Shown here: in pieces, positions 882 through 5,792 of the stretch
Layout: every line of letters begins with the position of its first letter
Position numbering within the stretch: the first letter of the stretch is position 1
Source: Bacillota bacterium
GTDB lineage: Bacteria > Bacillota_B > Desulfitobacteriia > Desulfitobacteriales > Desulfitobacteriaceae
Direction: 5' to 3'
NCBI GenBank assembly: GCA_021779415.1
Contig: JAJYAS010000256.1
Location: forward strand, 1-5,792
Length of the DNA: 5,792 nucleotides
Translations under genes and position numbers: made by a program
Notes under the pieces: model-generated
The model's database searches: none
The model's input: only the letters and a program-made list of their open reading frames with translations
Told to the model about the DNA's origin: nothing

Positions 882-2087
882 TTATTTTATGGCCAGGGTA
901 TCCATAATACCCGTCATTTCCTTGACGGCGTTATCGTATATCTTGTCATGGGACCAAATCTGTGTTACGAGTATATAATTATCCATCGCAGTAGCCTGCA
1001 TTCTGACCTTCCAGTATCCGGAACTGGTTTGTGCGTTAAATATTGCCTCTGTAGATGCGGACCCGTCGCTCTCTGTTATGCTGCTTTCCTTATAGTTTGA
1101 TATAGCATCTTTAGCATTAGTTTTTAGATTGTCTAAAGTAATTTTTATAAAATCTTTAGTTGTCCCTTCATAGGTGAGGCCTTTTTTGATAGAATCCTGT
1201 AAGAATTTCTGCTCGCATCGTATGAAATATGTGTCATTTATCTTACTTGTCAATTGAATAGTATTATTTTGCATTAAGTCGATTCTCATGCTGGCAGGAT
1301 ACTTGAAGGATACTGGGTAGGCAGAGTTAGAGAAGGTTTTGGTCTCTTGAACGGCAGCTTTTGGATCAGCAGTATTGGTATTGGTATTGGCCGCTTTAGC
1401 AATAACACGCTTAAGTGTTGTGTCTCCTATGACCATAGTATTTTCATCCTTGAAAACTGCAGTTTCCGAACTACTTGTACCGTCACTTTCAGTTATGCTT
1501 ATCGTTGTTGAATTCTTGCTTCCAGCTATTGCTGCCAATTTATAAGTATACTGTTTTTGTTCCCCATTATTTACTATCGAAACTTCTCCCTTTGGATTAA
1601 ATTTCATAGAATCTTCTCCTGAAGTCCATTTCCCAATAACAAGCGCTTCAGGCGATTTAGCGATAGTAAAGCTCACCTTTTTGGAACTGGTTTTCCCAGC
1701 TGAGTTGGTCTCCAGAGCGGTTAAGCTATGGGACCCGTTGGTCAGAGCAGTAATATCCAAGCTATAGTTGAATCCTGAATTGGTGTTGTTATAATCCGGA
1801 TAAGCTTTCTGCACATCGGGGCGGGAATCGCCGTATGTTGCTTCACCTACCGTAGTGCCATCTATCTGGATCTCGACTTTGGAAACACCGGCGGTGTCTA
1901 AGAACCAGCCCTGAACTTTATAATTAGCTGAGCTAATAGTTGCTCCAGACGCTGGAGCATCAATACAGGCATCAAATGTAGTCTTAGACTCAGCTGTAGT
2001 CTTATCACTTCCACACCCAGACAATATTACAGAAATCACCAATAAAACGACCATACTAATTAAACTTACTGATAACTTTTGTTTCAT
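882..2087 (-). CDS. Modular lipoprotein with Ig-like, lipocalin-like and PsbP-like domains
   Basis: This is a 401-residue predicted lipoprotein with a type II signal peptide. A KQK n-region and a hydrophobic core run up to the lipobox LSGC, with Cys25 as the lipidated residue. After a short T/S/K linker comes a bacterial Ig-like domain, about residues 38-143. It has the pattern VQGWFLD, GVSKVEIQIDG, YGDSRPDVQKAYPDY, NSGFNYSLDI and LTNGSHSLT, which is common in Firmicute surface proteins. Residues ~149-227 form a small beta domain (LVIGKW at the start, NTMVIGDTTLKR at the end) resembling lipocalin-like/DUF5640 domains. An Asn-Thr linker leads to residues ~252-401, where YPVSFKYPASM suggests a PsbP/DUF1795-like fold. 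The protein probably sits on the outer face of the membrane. AGAGGGGGAAAG gives a strong ribosome binding site. It is a paralogue of the gene just upstream (2178-2906), lies 90 bp after it, and no terminator is visible between them. No catalytic residues are recognisable. Confidence 0.85.
   Translation of the reverse strand: MKQKLSVSLISMVVLLVISVILSGCGSDKTTAESKTTFDACIDAPASGATISSANYKVQGWFLDTAGVSKVEIQIDGTTVGEATYGDSRPDVQKAYPDYNNTNSGFNYSLDITALTNGSHSLTALETNSAGKTSSKKVSFTIAKSPEALVIGKWTSGEDSMKFNPKGEVSIVNNGEQKQYTYKLAAIAGSKNSTTISITESDGTSSSETAVFKDENTMVIGDTTLKRVIAKAANTNTNTADPKAAVQETKTFSNSAYPVSFKYPASMRIDLMQNNTIQLTSKINDTYFIRCEQKFLQDSIKKGLTYEGTTKDFIKITLDNLKTNAKDAISNYKESSITESDGSASTEAIFNAQTSSGYWKVRMQATAMDNYILVTQIWSHDKIYDNAVKEMTGIMDTLAIK
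1373..1390. repeat. Three tandem 6-bp units (TATTGG) in a coding linker
   Basis: TATTGG occurs three times in a row. Read on the minus strand, it encodes the alternating Asn-Thr run in the linker between the lipocalin-like and C-terminal domains of the 882-2087 lipoprotein. The 6-bp unit keeps the frame, so copy-number changes would only alter linker length. The paralogous gene lacks it. Confidence 0.6.
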
Positions 2088-2110: not shown

Positions 2111-2177
2111 GTAACTTTTATACTAACTGAAAAACCTTAATAACTGATACTTCAATTCTGTTGTCCCACCGGATCGT

Positions 2178-2906
2178 CTAGTTCAATACTTTTAATTTTG
2201 AGTCAAAAGGGTCTTTTAATTCATATACCTTACCCGTGCTTTTACTGACATAATACCAGCCAATATTATCTTGCGTTGTACTATCATTTTTTGAGACTTC
2301 AGTAAAAACACGAATGTTAAAGCAATCTATTCCCTTTGCCTGACTGCTGTTATCGCGATTTATATAATAATCGCCCTTATCATCTTTCATCACCTTATCA
2401 TCCTGATTAGGTTCAAATATATATTTGCCGTTTCCGCTTCCTAAAAGGTTTTTTACTACTTGTATTGCTTTGTCGGAACTTGTGACGGGACTCCCTGGAA
2501 CAGATCCTGTTTCTGCTTTAGGATTGGCAGCATTAGCACGCTTAAATATTGTGTCCCCTATAACCATAGTATCTTCATCCTTAAAAACTGCAGTTTCTGA
2601 TGCACTGCTGTCACTATCAGTTATGGTTATCGTTATTGAATCCTTACTTCCATCTATGGTTGCCAATTTATAAGCAAACTGCTTTTGTTCCCCATTTTCT
2701 ATTGCATTAATTCCTCCCTTTTGAGTAAATTCCATAGAACCTTCTCCTGAAATCCATTTCCCAATAACGAGTTCTTTAGGTGATTTAGGGGTATTTGTAG
2801 TCTTAGACCCAGCTGTAGTCTCATCACTTCCACATCCAGATAACATTACGGAAATTGCCAATAAAACGATCATACTAATTACACTTACTGATAACTTTTG
2901 TTTCAT
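2178..2906 (-). CDS. Lipoprotein with lipocalin-like domain and C-terminal GWYYV domain
   Basis: This 242-residue predicted lipoprotein has lipobox LSGC and lipidated Cys25. Its signal peptide is nearly identical to that of the downstream paralogue (882-2087). After the SKTT linker only three residues (NTP) separate it from the lipocalin-like/DUF5640-like domain at about 46-124 (LVIGKW to DTMVIGDTIFKR), so the Ig-like domain of the paralogue is absent. The C-terminal part, about 145-235, is unrelated to the paralogue. Its features, KAIQVVKNLL, then a central YYIN and a GWYYVSKSTGKVYEL end, resemble the small C-terminal domain found in many clostridial lipoproteins. The start is fixed by AGAGGGGGAAAG, nine bases before ATG. 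It probably heads a two-gene unit driven by the promoter module at 3014-3058, giving a leader of about 100 nt. The protein should be surface-anchored; its ligand or function is not recognisable. Confidence 0.85.
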   Translation of the reverse strand: MKQKLSVSVISMIVLLAISVMLSGCGSDETTAGSKTTNTPKSPKELVIGKWISGEGSMEFTQKGGINAIENGEQKQFAYKLATIDGSKDSITITITDSDSSASETAVFKDEDTMVIGDTIFKRANAANPKAETGSVPGSPVTSSDKAIQVVKNLLGSGNGKYIFEPNQDDKVMKDDKGDYYINRDNSSQAKGIDCFNIRVFTEVSKNDSTTQDNIGWYYVSKSTGKVYELKDPFDSKLKVLN

Positions 2907-2929: not shown

Positions 2930-2997
2930 ATTAAGTTTGTAATCTCACTTTGGCATCACACTTATCATATGGTTCATTTGAATACCCCGAAAATTAA

Positions 2998-3028
2998 AAT
3001 TCACTCTACAATAATTGTAGAGTGAATT
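2998..3028. terminator. Perfect 14-bp inverted repeat: terminator and/or operator
   Basis: Two perfect 14-bp arms, AATTCACTCTACAA and its complement, flank a TAA loop. On the minus strand the repeat lies 100 bp past the stop of the lipoprotein gene at 3128 and is followed by TTTTAATTTTC, so read-through RNA could form a terminator hairpin. On the plus strand CTTTTTGTTTT follows, but no plus-strand gene feeds it. The repeat also covers the TACAAT -10 box (3014-3019) and likely start point of the next promoter, so it could equally be a repressor operator. The low GC of the stem makes the terminator reading only moderate. Confidence 0.55.
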
Positions 3029-3058
3029 CTTTTTGTTTTATATCACCCAGTGGGTGAT
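3014..3058 (-). promoter_or_regulatory. Activator-type promoter module A (ATCACCC-N3-GGGTGAT plus TACAAT)
   Basis: A perfect palindrome, ATCACCC-AGT-GGGTGAT on the plus strand, spans 3042-3058. Exactly 22 bp downstream on the minus strand is TACAAT (3014-3019), a good -10 box. The position of a 17-bp-spaced -35 reads TATAAA, a poor match. With transcription starting near 3007 the palindrome is centred near -43, as for class II activators. The same geometry recurs at 5092-5136. It would drive the lipoprotein genes 2178-2906 and 882-2087. The activator is inferred to be a MalT-like LuxR protein. Confidence 0.6.
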
Positions 3059-3127
3059 CTTTTGATAACCTTTTATAATTTTTCTATAAAATCTCGCTTG
3101 GTTATTTTATCCTTATAACTACTCCTC

Positions 3128-3970
3128 TTAGTTAACAAGAAATAGATAATCCTTCCAGACCGGGCTGCTTTTAATCATATTTGCTTCGATGGTCTCATAA
3201 TTGATAGCCATCTCCAGGTGATCGCCAAGGGCATGGGGAACCTCTATACTTACTATTACTCCGTATTCCATCAACTTGTAATTGGCCTCGGCGTTTTGGA
3301 ACAGATTGATCAGATCTTGATTAGAGTACTGTCGTTTGATTTCCTCTTTCAAGTTGACTCCAGATTTCTCTAAGTCCAAATCCTTTCTCGAGGGTGAGTA
3401 CATACCGTTTTTAAATCGTTCAACAAAGACATCATTTATAGTAAAAATATCTTTTAAAGGGATAGTATGAACATCATCACCCAGTGAAATATTCTGGGTG
3501 TGATAGACATTAACCGGATTAGGAGCTTGTTCAAAATGTGCATATCCTTGATAGGAAATGCTGAGTACTTTATGACCATATCCCGCGATTTCGTAGTTCA
3601 AATCCAAGGTCAAAGCACCCATGTTTTTTCCCTCGCTTTTGAGCGAGTCTATTATCTCCCTAATATTCTCCTGTATCGCTTTATTGATTGAATCCGCCTT
3701 GGTCGGATTGTTTGTTTTGGCGAGCTGTGGGAATTTCAGGGTAATACCCGTTTCTGTATAGGTTTCATCAATAATGCCATAGGTAAACTCTTCTTTTTTC
3801 TCAGGAACGGCTATTTTCTCTGGAACGGCTTTTCCCCCAGAATCCGATTTCTTGACGTCCTGATTCGTTGAAAGTGTCTCTTTCGAAGCTTCTTTCTTGG
3901 CACAGGCTACAAGACTCATTGTCAGTATCAAACAAATGACAACCAGTAAACTTTTTTGAAGGGTTTTCAT
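3128..3970 (-). CDS. Lipoprotein with DUF4163/DUF3298-like domain
   Basis: This is a predicted lipoprotein of 280 residues from the ATG at 3970. That start gives a compact signal peptide (MKTLQKS, a hydrophobic core, lipobox LVAC with Cys23). The frame is open upstream to a TTG at 4000, but that start has no ribosome binding site and would add an unnatural ten-residue extension. An AAAGGA lies about 13 nt before the chosen ATG, so translation may be modest. A Lys/Glu/Pro-rich linker follows. The mature domain (FTYGIIDETYTETG, then LSISYQGYAHF, PVNVYHTQNISL and IPLKDIF) looks like the DUF4163/DUF3298 pair known from RsiV and PdaC-type surface proteins. Its C-terminal half is less typical. RsiV-like proteins bind lysozyme, but no transmembrane anti-sigma part exists here, so that function cannot be assumed. 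It starts 127 bp after the chagasin-domain gene with no clear promoter of its own. Confidence 0.75.
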   Translation of the reverse strand: MKTLQKSLLVVICLILTMSLVACAKKEASKETLSTNQDVKKSDSGGKAVPEKIAVPEKKEEFTYGIIDETYTETGITLKFPQLAKTNNPTKADSINKAIQENIREIIDSLKSEGKNMGALTLDLNYEIAGYGHKVLSISYQGYAHFEQAPNPVNVYHTQNISLGDDVHTIPLKDIFTINDVFVERFKNGMYSPSRKDLDLEKSGVNLKEEIKRQYSNQDLINLFQNAEANYKLMEYGVIVSIEVPHALGDHLEMAINYETIEANMIKSSPVWKDYLFLVN

Positions 3971-4097
3971 TTTTATAACCATTCCTTTCGCTACGCTCAA
4001 GGCACAAAACGTTATGAAAATCGTTGACTTTAGCTATCCATTAGTTGTTGATTTTTAATGTCTTTAGGTTAATGATCTTTCTTCGCTCTTAATAAAC

Positions 4098-5018
4098 CTA
4101 TTCACTAATCTTGATCGTATATTCACCCGTTTTTGTTGCAGATTTTTCTCCTTCCCAACTTCTATAATACTTAAAGGAAATTTTTGTTGTACCTTGTTTC
4201 ATTCCTTTAAAATTCCAGGTATGTTGACTTCCTGCTCCCACTAAATTGGGTTTACTATTATTTTGGCTATTGGTCTCTGAACCTTGGCTATTCTCCGAAT
4301 CAAGCCTAATTAAATCATTATTCTCTATAGAATAATGCCAACTATAACCTGTAGTGATATTTTCGTCTAAGGTTATTGAGACAATTTTCCCTACGTTTAC
4401 CACTTTATTTAGATTAGAACTTTCAATAGGGCTTGTTTTAGCATCGGTTTCATTAGTTTTTGAAATTGTGACAGTATTTCTCGATAGCTCATTGGTCATT
4501 TGTGTAACAATCTCCCTATAGATTTCTTTTTCTTTTTCTGGATAGGATATGATGAAGCCGAGTTGTTGATCGCCAGCGACACAGCCAACTTCATTAAAGA
4601 TGATGGGGGTATCATCTCCACCGCCATATTCAAGTATGTATCCATGATCATCAGCATACTCATGGATGATATGGCTTACTCTGTTTTTTGCCATAGCCAT
4701 CAGATCAACGCCTGAGCTATTACTCACATTGTTGCCACCCCATATCTTCAAGGTATGAAGTTTATCGGAGGACTCCATGGAGATACCGTCCCCATTATCG
4801 CTTTCTGTTTTTTTTGTATAGATATCGGGGTAGGACAGAGAGAACCCGAATCGACCATTGGAATACGTTTTATAGGAGGCCTTAGTAGCGCTTGTTTTTG
4901 TTACATCCGATGTTGGGTCAACAAGGCTTACTGGTTCTTTGTAATTGGAGCAACCGATAAGTGAAACGATTAGTACAAAAGTGATGATATAGGCTGGAAT
5001 TCTTCTCTTGTTTTTCAT
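4098..5018 (-). CDS. Lipoprotein with C-terminal chagasin-type (I42) protease inhibitor domain
   Basis: This 306-residue predicted lipoprotein has an n-region MKNKRR, a hydrophobic core and lipobox LIGC with Cys23. Residues ~52-180 begin with YSNGRFGFSLSYP and contain ESDNGDG and LKIWGGNN, a pattern seen in PsbP-like domains of clostridial lipoproteins. Residues ~205-306 match the chagasin/amoebiasin family (PF09394, MEROPS I42). All three inhibitory loops are visible: ITTGYSW at 221-227 (family NPTTGYxW), VGAGSQHTW at 260-268 and YRSWEGEK at 285-292 (family RPW loop). Known members block papain-like cysteine peptidases, so this one may protect the cell surface from such enzymes; that role is inferred. 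TGGGGGA lies seven bases before the ATG. The gene sits about 67 nt downstream of the start point predicted for promoter module B and is the first intact gene after the broken LuxR gene. Confidence 0.85.
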   Translation of the reverse strand: MKNKRRIPAYIITFVLIVSLIGCSNYKEPVSLVDPTSDVTKTSATKASYKTYSNGRFGFSLSYPDIYTKKTESDNGDGISMESSDKLHTLKIWGGNNVSNSSGVDLMAMAKNRVSHIIHEYADDHGYILEYGGGDDTPIIFNEVGCVAGDQQLGFIISYPEKEKEIYREIVTQMTNELSRNTVTISKTNETDAKTSPIESSNLNKVVNVGKIVSITLDENITTGYSWHYSIENNDLIRLDSENSQGSETNSQNNSKPNLVGAGSQHTWNFKGMKQGTTKISFKYYRSWEGEKSATKTGEYTIKISE

Positions 5019-5091
5019 TTCATGTCCCCCATTTAATATTAGTTACTCAAGTTTTGCACAGGAATTTAAACTGACCTTAAACCTTGCCCTT

Positions 5092-5136
5092 ATTGTATAG
5101 TGATTGTTTTTGCTTGAATATCACCCATCGGGTGAT
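5092..5136 (-). promoter_or_regulatory. Activator-type promoter module B (ATCACCC-N3-GGGTGAT plus TACAAT)
   Basis: The palindrome ATCACCC-ATC-GGGTGAT spans 5120-5136, only three bases beyond the stop codon of the LuxR remnant. TACAAT follows on the minus strand at 5092-5097 after exactly 22 bp, as in module A. Fourteen of the 22 spacer bases also match, including TCACT directly before the -10. The -35 position reads TATTCA, a weak match. Predicted transcription starts near 5085, giving the chagasin-domain lipoprotein gene a leader of about 67 nt. A weak -35 overlapped by a palindrome near -43 suggests activator dependence. Confidence 0.65.
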
Positions 5137-5139
5137 TTC

Positions 5140-5531
5140 TTATGAACTTACGACCAGCTTCTCAAAAATGCTCTTAAGCTGTGTTTTTACTGTGTTCTGG
5201 GAAATATATAGCCTTTCTCCTATTTCCTTGTTGGAAAACCCTTCTGCCGCAAGTTTTGCTATCTCCATTTCCCTTTTAGTAAGAACAGGCTTGCTCTCTT
5301 CAAAATACTCCTTCCTAATATGACCAACTGCTTATTATAGGTCTCGAACAGCTCCAGTATCCTTGAAATATCCTCACGGTAGCTGCCCTGTAGCTGTAGT
5401 TCCTCCAACAGAGGCTCTATGTAATCGCAGTTTTCCACAAAGGGCATATATACCTTATCTGGCATGGCAATATCAAAAACAATTAGAACATCAAGCTTCC
5501 TGCAGTCACCGACTGCTCTGAAGGTCCCCAT
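5140..5531 (-). pseudogene. C-terminal remnant of a MalT-like LuxR-family activator, frameshifted
   Basis: Two reading frames together give about 130 residues that match the C-terminus of MalT-like (ATP-dependent, LuxR-type) transcriptional activators. The first frame (from 5531) contains PDKVYMPFVENCDYIEPLL and a helical ELFETYNKQL segment. The match then continues in another frame as GHIRKEYFEESKPVLTKREM and the helix-turn-helix NKEIGERLYISQNTVKTQLK, ending at TAA (5140-5142). The shift is best explained by loss of one base in the G run at 5324-5325 (minus strand), between QL and GH. Intact family members are usually about 800-900 residues, so the ATPase and repeat domains are missing. An in-frame TAG lies upstream of the ATG. 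The protein also stops at KLVVSS, short of the last helix usually seen in GerE domains. The recognition helix itself is well preserved. It is probably non-functional. Confidence 0.85.
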
Positions 5532-5589
5532 TTGGAAACCCGGTAACTAAATATTGGTGAAGCTCAACGGAAATCTCTTTCTAAAATGC

Positions 5590-5640
5590 AAAAAAAGCCT
5601 TGAGGCAGTACATATCCATATCTATGTACCTCAAGGCTTT
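5590..5640 (-). terminator. Intrinsic terminator of ssrA
   Basis: A long hairpin pairs AAAGCCTTGAGG (5594-5605) with its complement ending at 5640. A second helix, TACATA with TATGTA, lies above a three-base bulge. On the minus strand the stem ends in GGC followed by a run of seven T, the classic intrinsic terminator tail. It lies 38 bp beyond the 3' CCA of ssrA and should end tmRNA transcription, insulating the LuxR remnant and the lipoprotein genes from it. Confidence 0.85.
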
Positions 5641-5677
5641 CGTTATTATGTATCTCCACCACATTCGAGGGTTTGAT

Positions 5678-5792
5678 TGGCGGAGGCGAGGGGATTTGCA
5701 CCCCTGTATCGAAGAGCTGCCACAAAAGCGTCTACGCGTGTGTCCTTTAATTTAAAGTTCGCCAGTCTTGACTCCTAAAGGCCAGGATTCAG
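5678..5792 (-). ncRNA. ssrA: tmRNA, 3' portion (cut by the window edge)
   Basis: tmRNA rescues ribosomes stalled on broken mRNAs by acting first as alanyl-tRNA and then as a short message for a degradation tag. Read on the minus strand, the last ~115 nt are present: a stem-loop compatible with pseudoknot 4 (TCCT with AGGA, and loop GCC able to pair with GGC at 5761-5763), then ACACGCGTAGACGC and TTTTGTGG of the tRNA-like junction, a T-arm (AGGGG/CCCCT) and an acceptor strand CGCCTCC ending with encoded CCA at 5680-5678. U70, the partner for the alanine-identity G3, is present. Two positions are unusual: the T-loop reads TGCAAAT instead of TTCAAAT, and the discriminator base is G rather than A. 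The tag-coding part and 5' end lie outside the window, so it cannot be said whether the gene is whole. Confidence 0.88.

Follow-up and report, generated by a model that had tools for sequence, protein, structure and literature searches.

The occurrence of two perfect copies of one palindrome, ATCACCC-N3-GGGTGAT, in a 5,792-nucleotide stretch of a Desulfitobacteriaceae genome (GenBank assembly GCA_021779415.1, contig JAJYAS010000256.1; the entire stretch is referred to here as the window) raises the question of which protein reads these sites and what they control. The copies lie on the minus strand at 3042..3058 and 5120..5136, and each is followed after exactly 22 bp by a TACAAT −10 box on the same strand (3014..3019 and 5092..5097), with 14 of the 22 spacer bases, counted by hand, common to both. 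A first-pass annotation had described this layout and placed both sites upstream of lipoprotein genes, and the sequence bears it out on each point, the first genes behind the sites being at 2178-2906 (site 3042) and 4098-5018 (site 5120). No further position in the window comes within three mismatches of the palindrome, and two matches at this tolerance arose in 1 of 200 shuffles of the window. Taking the T of TACAAT as −12, the palindrome spans −51 to −35 with its center at −43, the location at which a class II activator (site near −41 to −43) replaces the −35 box; recalculation agrees with the geometry proposed earlier and gives predicted transcription starts at 3007 and 5085. At site 3042, the −10 box lies within the left arm of a perfect inverted repeat with 15-bp arms (2998..3028, minus strand), which is followed by TTAATTTT on the minus strand. 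The RNA of 2985-3035 folds at −19.2 kcal/mol (z −7.2), and the element has the stable hairpin and U-tract of an intrinsic terminator, though the tract is imperfect. A MalT-like switch protein very probably binds at the repeated motif. Overall, we consider it likely that each palindrome is the operator of a MalT-like activator working with a promoter whose −10 box is embedded in a terminator-like hairpin, and that the window holds decayed descendants of this arrangement.

We searched one genome for each of 84,980 species for the palindrome followed by TANAAT, leaving the spacer free from 17 to 27 bp; because every spacing was searched alike, the scan is a direct test of a fixed distance. It returned 114 stretches, with 51 matches at 21 bp, 34 at 22, 6 at 20, 10 at 23, and 1 to 5 at each other spacing (every match is counted, the two of the window included, and a few palindromes match at two spacings). 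Viral contigs gave 0 matches to the spaced motif. Two families can be told apart by eye. In family A, the type found in the window, the spacing is 22, the palindrome is followed by GGGTGATATAAA, and TACAAT is usually enclosed by a hairpin. Family B, with examples in records named Tissierellia, Syntrophomonadaceae, and Clostridiaceae, mostly has a spacing of 21 with TATAAT or TAAAAT, shows by eye, without a count, no hairpin like that of family A, and has sites that face genes divergent from their LuxR. Ten motif-bearing genomes that were scanned each carry 1-3 sites at no more than one mismatch; the reversed pattern, at up to three mismatches, gave 0 matches in eight of them and 1 in each of the other two. 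Among 45 genomes of the family of Desulfosporosinus sp. FKB, nine match at up to two mismatches, and the reversed pattern gave 0 in all 45. Further searches of the same phylum, from that genome and with a second LuxR query, yielded mostly genomes already covered, which do not enter the counts twice. The matches in two genomes, G011 and G012, are probably chance, since they are near-identical to each other and lack the family A signature.

The sites are linked to genes for LuxR-type regulators. Proteins with a GerE-type helix-turn-helix (HTH) are encoded in 29 of 115 loci, and a LuxR gene lies in the same fetched stretch for 14 of the 17 sites looked at (at most one mismatch; one further site, in G009, was left out). 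Seven family A loci, that of the window among them, have a LuxR frame whose end is 14-72 bp away from the center of the palindrome. A search that began from LuxR, and is free of the bias that TANAAT in the pattern introduces, found 21 related LuxR genes in 73 genomes. The palindrome, with 0-1 mismatch, lies no more than 60 bp from the stop codon in all nine of those with at least 48% identity; TACAAT follows at 22 bp in seven of the nine, L197 has TACACT, and in G002 the palindrome has a wider center and the −10 box is lost, with the hairpin kept. Together, the spacing, the luxR linkage, and the LuxR-first search support what the first-pass annotation had surmised, an activator-type promoter tied to MalT-like LuxR genes. 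The family A regulator tested, that of L160, carries a C-terminal GerE HTH (58.1 bits against a cut-off of 23.5) and is homologous over residues 17-349 to the solved structure of MalT (8bob, E 5.7e-12), an N-terminal STAND NTPase region that is absent from the LuxR remnant of the window. Pfam AAA and STAND models score below their cut-offs, as does the MalT TPR region (PF17874, 15.8 bits, cut-off 45). Its best NCBIfam match is MalT itself (NF003420, an equivalog), at 138.1 bits against a cut-off of 537. The regulator appears to work like MalT without being MalT.

Behind many related LuxR genes of anaerobic Firmicutes there is a recurrent cassette, comprising a predicted operator, about 22 bp of spacer, a U-tract hairpin holding a putative −10 box, and often a gene for a DUF2442 protein. 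Desulfosporosinus sp. FKB and Fusibacter sp. 3D3 are among the bacteria that have it intact. The set examined began with 57 LuxR loci (L180-L236), from which five cut short in the LuxR match, one without downstream DNA, and two redundant loci were removed, leaving 49; the controls were 716 ends of other genes, taken without redundancy from loci L001-L179, treated with the same script and unmatched in base composition. The hairpin rule, overly stringent at first, was relaxed equally for the LuxR ends and the controls, and a few automatic −10 calls that looked off by eye in both sets were left unchanged. A hairpin with a U-tract (the tract being part of the search rule) lies near the stop codon at 34 of 49 luxR ends versus 222 of 716 other gene ends, and the hairpin contains a −10 box (TANNNT, at least 4 of 6) at 32 of 49 versus 71 of 716. 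In a held-out set of 23 further loci, reduced to 19 by the removal of two cut short and two redundant ones, the hairpin was present at 18 of 19 ends and the −10 box within it at 15. With the 32 cassette loci aligned on the −10 box alone, palindromy is highest around a center 31 bp before the first base of the box (−31; 4.06 of 9 versus a mean of 2.40), which is again the class II position. The peak stays at −31 in the 25 loci whose operator is not of the ATCACCC type (3.40 of 9; mean over centers 2.42, SD 0.33) and falls at −31.5 in the held-out loci (3.6; mean 2.41, SD 0.37; next centers 3.0). The 71 control hairpins show no comparable peak, their highest mean being 2.92 at −16, with 2.41 at −31. 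DUF2442 is the next gene behind 24 of the 49 LuxR genes, namely in 22 of 32 cassette loci and 2 of the 17 others, and is followed in turn by secreted and other genes. The assignment rests on Pfam for L160, whose 76-aa gene passes PF10387 (27.6 versus a cut-off of 23.9), and on a profile built from relatives for the others.

The predicted operator varies with the LuxR recognition helix, while its position near −43 stays. Distant LuxR genes (27-35% identity) and one branch at 48-57% have other palindromes in the same place, including ACTACCC-N3-GGGTAGT, AGTATC..GATAAT, TATACCG..CGGTATA, GTCCATTCGGAC, ATACCAC..GTGGTAT, and more. In one branch, helices TVKTQLK, TVKTTLK, and TVKTILK pair with ATCACCC, and TVKMALK, TVKMTLK, and TVKYSLK with ACTACCC; TVRKNIT pairs with AGTATC..GATAAT. 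Loci with similar HTHs tend to have similar operators across all 32 (Mantel r 0.61, 0 of 2000 permutations); given the rest of LuxR, a smaller partial correlation persists (0.22, 0 of 2000 permutations). A second run on 28 loci gave r 0.77; it left out L192, L193, L196, and L201, in which the operator was missed by the automatic −10 call or none was seen, and we rely on the figure for all 32.

We predict the following chain of binding, activation, and termination. Each palindrome would be the operator of an activator with a STAND ATPase and a LuxR/GerE HTH, a dimer of which would sit at −51 to −35 in place of a −35 box and recruit RNA polymerase to TACAAT in class II manner. In the full cassette, the order would be luxR, operator, U-tract hairpin, and often the DUF2442 gene, with the hairpin terminating transcription from luxR and at the same time supplying, in its left arm (or loop), the −10 box of the next operon. 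A transcript begun from that box would start past the left arm, so it could not form the hairpin and elongation would continue. Because this transcript cannot form the hairpin, the next operon would depend on the activator rather than on read-through.

The window would hold two decayed descendants of the cassette: site 5120, with a dead luxR remnant and no hairpin, and site 3042, which keeps operator, −10 box, and hairpin and has its DUF2442 gene split in two, with a lipoprotein gene between the parts. The first-pass annotation had missed the hairpin that holds the −10 box, the closeness of palindrome 5120 to the LuxR remnant, and the DUF2442 relics. Palindrome 5120 lies directly behind the remnant, its center 16 bp from an open frame (5143..5331, minus strand) that encodes the HTH (GerE) end of a MalT-like LuxR (58.4 bits, cut-off 23.5). 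This frame is 76% identical to the LuxR of G002 over 63 aa, stops earlier than its relatives, and differs in frame from the preceding LuxR piece, which lies in an open reading frame (ORF) at 5259..5531 (minus strand; 74% over 50 aa to the LuxR of G020). Between that ORF and the gene for transfer-messenger RNA (tmRNA) there is too little space for the rest of an 825-aa protein, and the remnant (5143-5531) represents the last part of the protein only, in two frames and with an early end. The remnant borders (window 5531-5792) the 3′ end of the tmRNA gene, of which 5678-5792 falls inside the window; the truncated gene scores 30.5 bits, short of the Rfam gathering score of 47. Because tmRNA genes are a common integration site at this end, the rest of luxR may have been lost through an insertion or deletion at this point.

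At site 3042, the first intact gene is that of lipoprotein A (2178..2906, minus strand; an ORF with a lipobox), which lies between two DUF2442 relics. The 5′ relic (2939..2977, minus strand; MNHMISVMPK*DY) has an in-frame stop at codon 11; together with its leader (2997-2939), it aligns as DNA to two intact cassettes, a result equaled by 0 of 2000 mononucleotide shuffles for either cassette, and at the protein level alone the match is weak (47% over 17 aa, E 0.62). The 3′ relic (2115..2174, minus strand; IRWDNRIEVSVIKVFQLV*K) matches at 60% over 20 aa (E 0.002, tblastn against 10 sequences). Because these relics lie behind it, their presence suggests that site 3042 descends from a luxR-operator-DUF2442 cassette. 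Duplication of the lipoprotein genes was considered as the source of the match between the two sites and rejected. The gene of lipoprotein B (882..2087, minus strand; Big_7 domain), a paralogue of A, is without a site of its own, and the repeat shared by the two genes, which had been given as 47 bp, is in fact larger, with one block of 146 nt at 90% (1977-2122 and 2796-2941) that stops short of the hairpin and the promoter. The earlier statement that the lipoprotein duplication does not explain the match therefore holds; that the copies owe nothing to duplication is not quite right, given the DUF2442 relics behind 3042. We read the history of the window as that of a luxR cassette copied in front of lipoprotein genes and later pared down.

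With so much decay, the two sites might themselves be nonfunctional relics of cassettes whose luxR and DUF2442 genes are dead, as the frame change and early end of the LuxR remnant, the fragmented DUF2442 gene, the missing hairpin at 5120, and the siteless syntenic cluster of G020 would all favor. We regard this as unlikely, though it deserves serious consideration, since, beside genes that have decayed, both palindromes and both −10 boxes remain perfect and site 3042 retains an intact hairpin, and since intact lipoprotein genes follow, with related lipoproteins behind sites in other genomes. The survival of flawless operators and −10 boxes next to dead luxR and DUF2442 genes hints instead at continued use by a LuxR elsewhere; should the window sites be functional today, their regulator must be a LuxR from another part of the genome.

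A second alternative accepts the LuxR-driven promoter and takes the hairpin as a DNA operator for a second protein, such as a DUF2442 feedback repressor, rather than as a terminator. An inverted repeat centered near the −10/+1 region would suit such a protein, as would the DUF2442 gene that comes next in 22 of the 32 cassette loci. The stem itself speaks for RNA. Among 22 family A sites, mostly found with TANAAT in the pattern, 88.5% of stem cells are paired, versus at most 47.9% when slid, and double changes occur in 14 cells, versus 3.9 in shuffles (0 of 500 as high) and at most 7 when slid. Stem sequence varies between loci with pairing kept. The 12 stem positions include 30 G-U pairs among 218, a kind of pair that suits RNA and that would not be favored by a dimer binding DNA, and the U-tract after the right arm at 34 of 49 luxR ends (part of the search rule) points the same way. 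The DNA operator is improbable on these grounds.

The first-pass annotation had also suggested a genome-wide surface-lipoprotein regulon. Lipoproteins are indeed among the targets. Behind site 5120, the first gene encodes a lipoprotein with an I42 (chagasin) inhibitor domain (4098..5018, minus strand; Inhibitor_I42 86.1 bits, cut-off 27.2), followed by one with a PdaC-like region (3128..3970, minus strand; 26 bits, under the cut-off of 29.1), the main genes of the window all lying on the minus strand in the order tmRNA 3′ end, LuxR remnant, I42 lipoprotein, PdaC-like lipoprotein, two paralogous lipoproteins, and AIM24 gene. L172, L178 (one mismatch, no −10 box at 22), and L162 each have a relative of the PdaC-like lipoprotein behind a site. 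In the last, from a Desulfosporosinus metagenome-assembled genome (G002), the site has a spacing of 21 and is followed by a shortened DUF2442 and then the PdaC-like lipoprotein; another locus of that genome (L161) has a site with one mismatch, an intact-looking DUF2442 frame, and an I42 lipoprotein. Lipoproteins also lie behind sites in a number of family B loci. The broad regulon nonetheless seems quite improbable, given 1-3 sites per genome at up to one mismatch in the 10 genomes, a LuxR gene in the same stretch as 14 of the 17 sites looked at, and many targets that are not lipoproteins. So the system would be a local LuxR-dependent promoter cassette rather than a genome-wide regulon, with lipoproteins as targets in several genomes. 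Finally, a joint RNA attenuator or processing element in one long transcript, with TACAAT no promoter, would account for two foldable elements at a fixed distance in the luxR-DUF2442 intergenic region, but is highly improbable given that the operator follows a DNA-recognition helix and that family B has the same palindrome, mostly at a spacing of 21, with no such hairpin by eye and with genes divergent from LuxR.

Several observations weigh against the reading of LuxR operators coupled to terminator-embedded promoters. Site 5120 has a fold z of +1.2, forming neither hairpin nor terminator, several secondary sites (L160_b, L168, and L169) lack a clear hairpin, and the syntenic lipoprotein cluster of G020 (L174) has no site even at three mismatches. 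No cassette was detected at 17 of 49 luxR ends (L197 and L207 among them show one by eye) or at 4 of 19 in the held-out set, which is the only independent count because visual inspection of the 49 ends had first revealed the cassette; the base composition of the controls was not matched. The DUF2442 contrast was not repeated, the gene being next in 10 of 15 held-out loci with the cassette and 3 of 4 without. Operator likeness follows the rest of LuxR (r 0.62) as it follows the HTH, and the Mantel permutations leave relatedness in. Only five stem pairs change on both sides, a number reached by 24 of 500 shuffles and by one slid version (6). Conservation is higher on the −10 side of the stem (21-22 of 22, partners 13-18 of 22), partly by construction because TANAAT stood in the search pattern; only C42 (21, partner 18) is free of this bias.

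Comparison with known activators helps to place the system. The L160 LuxR shares with E. coli MalT, a STAND ATPase with a LuxR-type HTH, the region of residues 17-349 and the C-terminal GerE HTH, with scores well short of the MalT equivalog. MalT acts at arrays of MalT boxes, whereas here there is a single 7-3-7 palindrome near −43 and the predicted targets are DUF2442 and surface genes. Vibrio fischeri LuxR acts at the lux box in a class II-like manner, centered near −42.5; its palindrome likewise replaces the −35 box at a similar distance from the −10 box, but it has another sensor domain, and here the −10 box lies in a hairpin behind the regulator's own gene. In Eggerthella lenta, LuxR activators with 12 transmembrane (TM) segments are encoded beside the genes they switch on (PMC9734109), an arrangement like the present one with another sensor domain; the terms "palindrom" and "inverted repeat" are absent from the main text of that paper. 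LuxR proteins that are many-TM by eye, like the Eggerthella regulators, are encoded at L008 3332-4840 and L001 3-938, 131-160 bp from the centers of ATCACCC-type sites. The L160 gene is DUF2442 by Pfam, and in the limited open-access literature, by titles and abstract openings, DUF2442 is paired with operons in toxin-antitoxin systems and with LuxR in Stenotrophomonas proteomics. The luxR-operator-hairpin cassette was not found described in the same titles and abstract openings, a scope that does not establish its absence from print.

Other features of these loci may be noted. In twelve loci outside the seven mentioned above, a LuxR of 519-560 aa lies 1419-1569 bp from the site, with a gene for a solute-binding protein between them in the four examined, L003, L055, L071, and L087 (by Pfam in L055 only). 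This second system, with the same palindrome mostly at a spacing of 21, combines a LuxR having a hydrophobic N-terminus with the solute-binding protein gene; the genes that diverge from it encode a DUF4870-like protein in L055 (below cut-off) and a DUF6591 lipoprotein in L071. At L160 9903-15491, behind the third site of that locus, a 1863-aa ORF has a DUF2442-like start, as if a cassette with the start of DUF2442 had been fused to another gene. Short phage tail collar-domain proteins are encoded near the LuxR-DUF2442 cassette at L160 9123-9755 (Pfam) and L173 4436-4978 (by eye).

More broadly, we tentatively propose, as plausible rather than probable, that in anaerobic Firmicutes the terminator behind a STAND-LuxR gene houses both the operator that the regulator recognizes and a promoter dependent on it, an element that would be a stop signal when read from luxR and a promoter core upon LuxR binding. 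The operator would follow the recognition helix with the geometry fixed, and the unit could be copied before surface and lipoprotein genes, recruiting them to the regulator. A promoter core inside a terminator, if true, would be a compact means of insulating an operon from read-through. The pairs of helix and palindrome would provide ready-made material for a recognition code of GerE domains, and operators of unstudied STAND-LuxR regulators may be predictable from position, directly downstream of the gene for the regulator and some 31 bp ahead of a −10 box lying in a U-tract hairpin.

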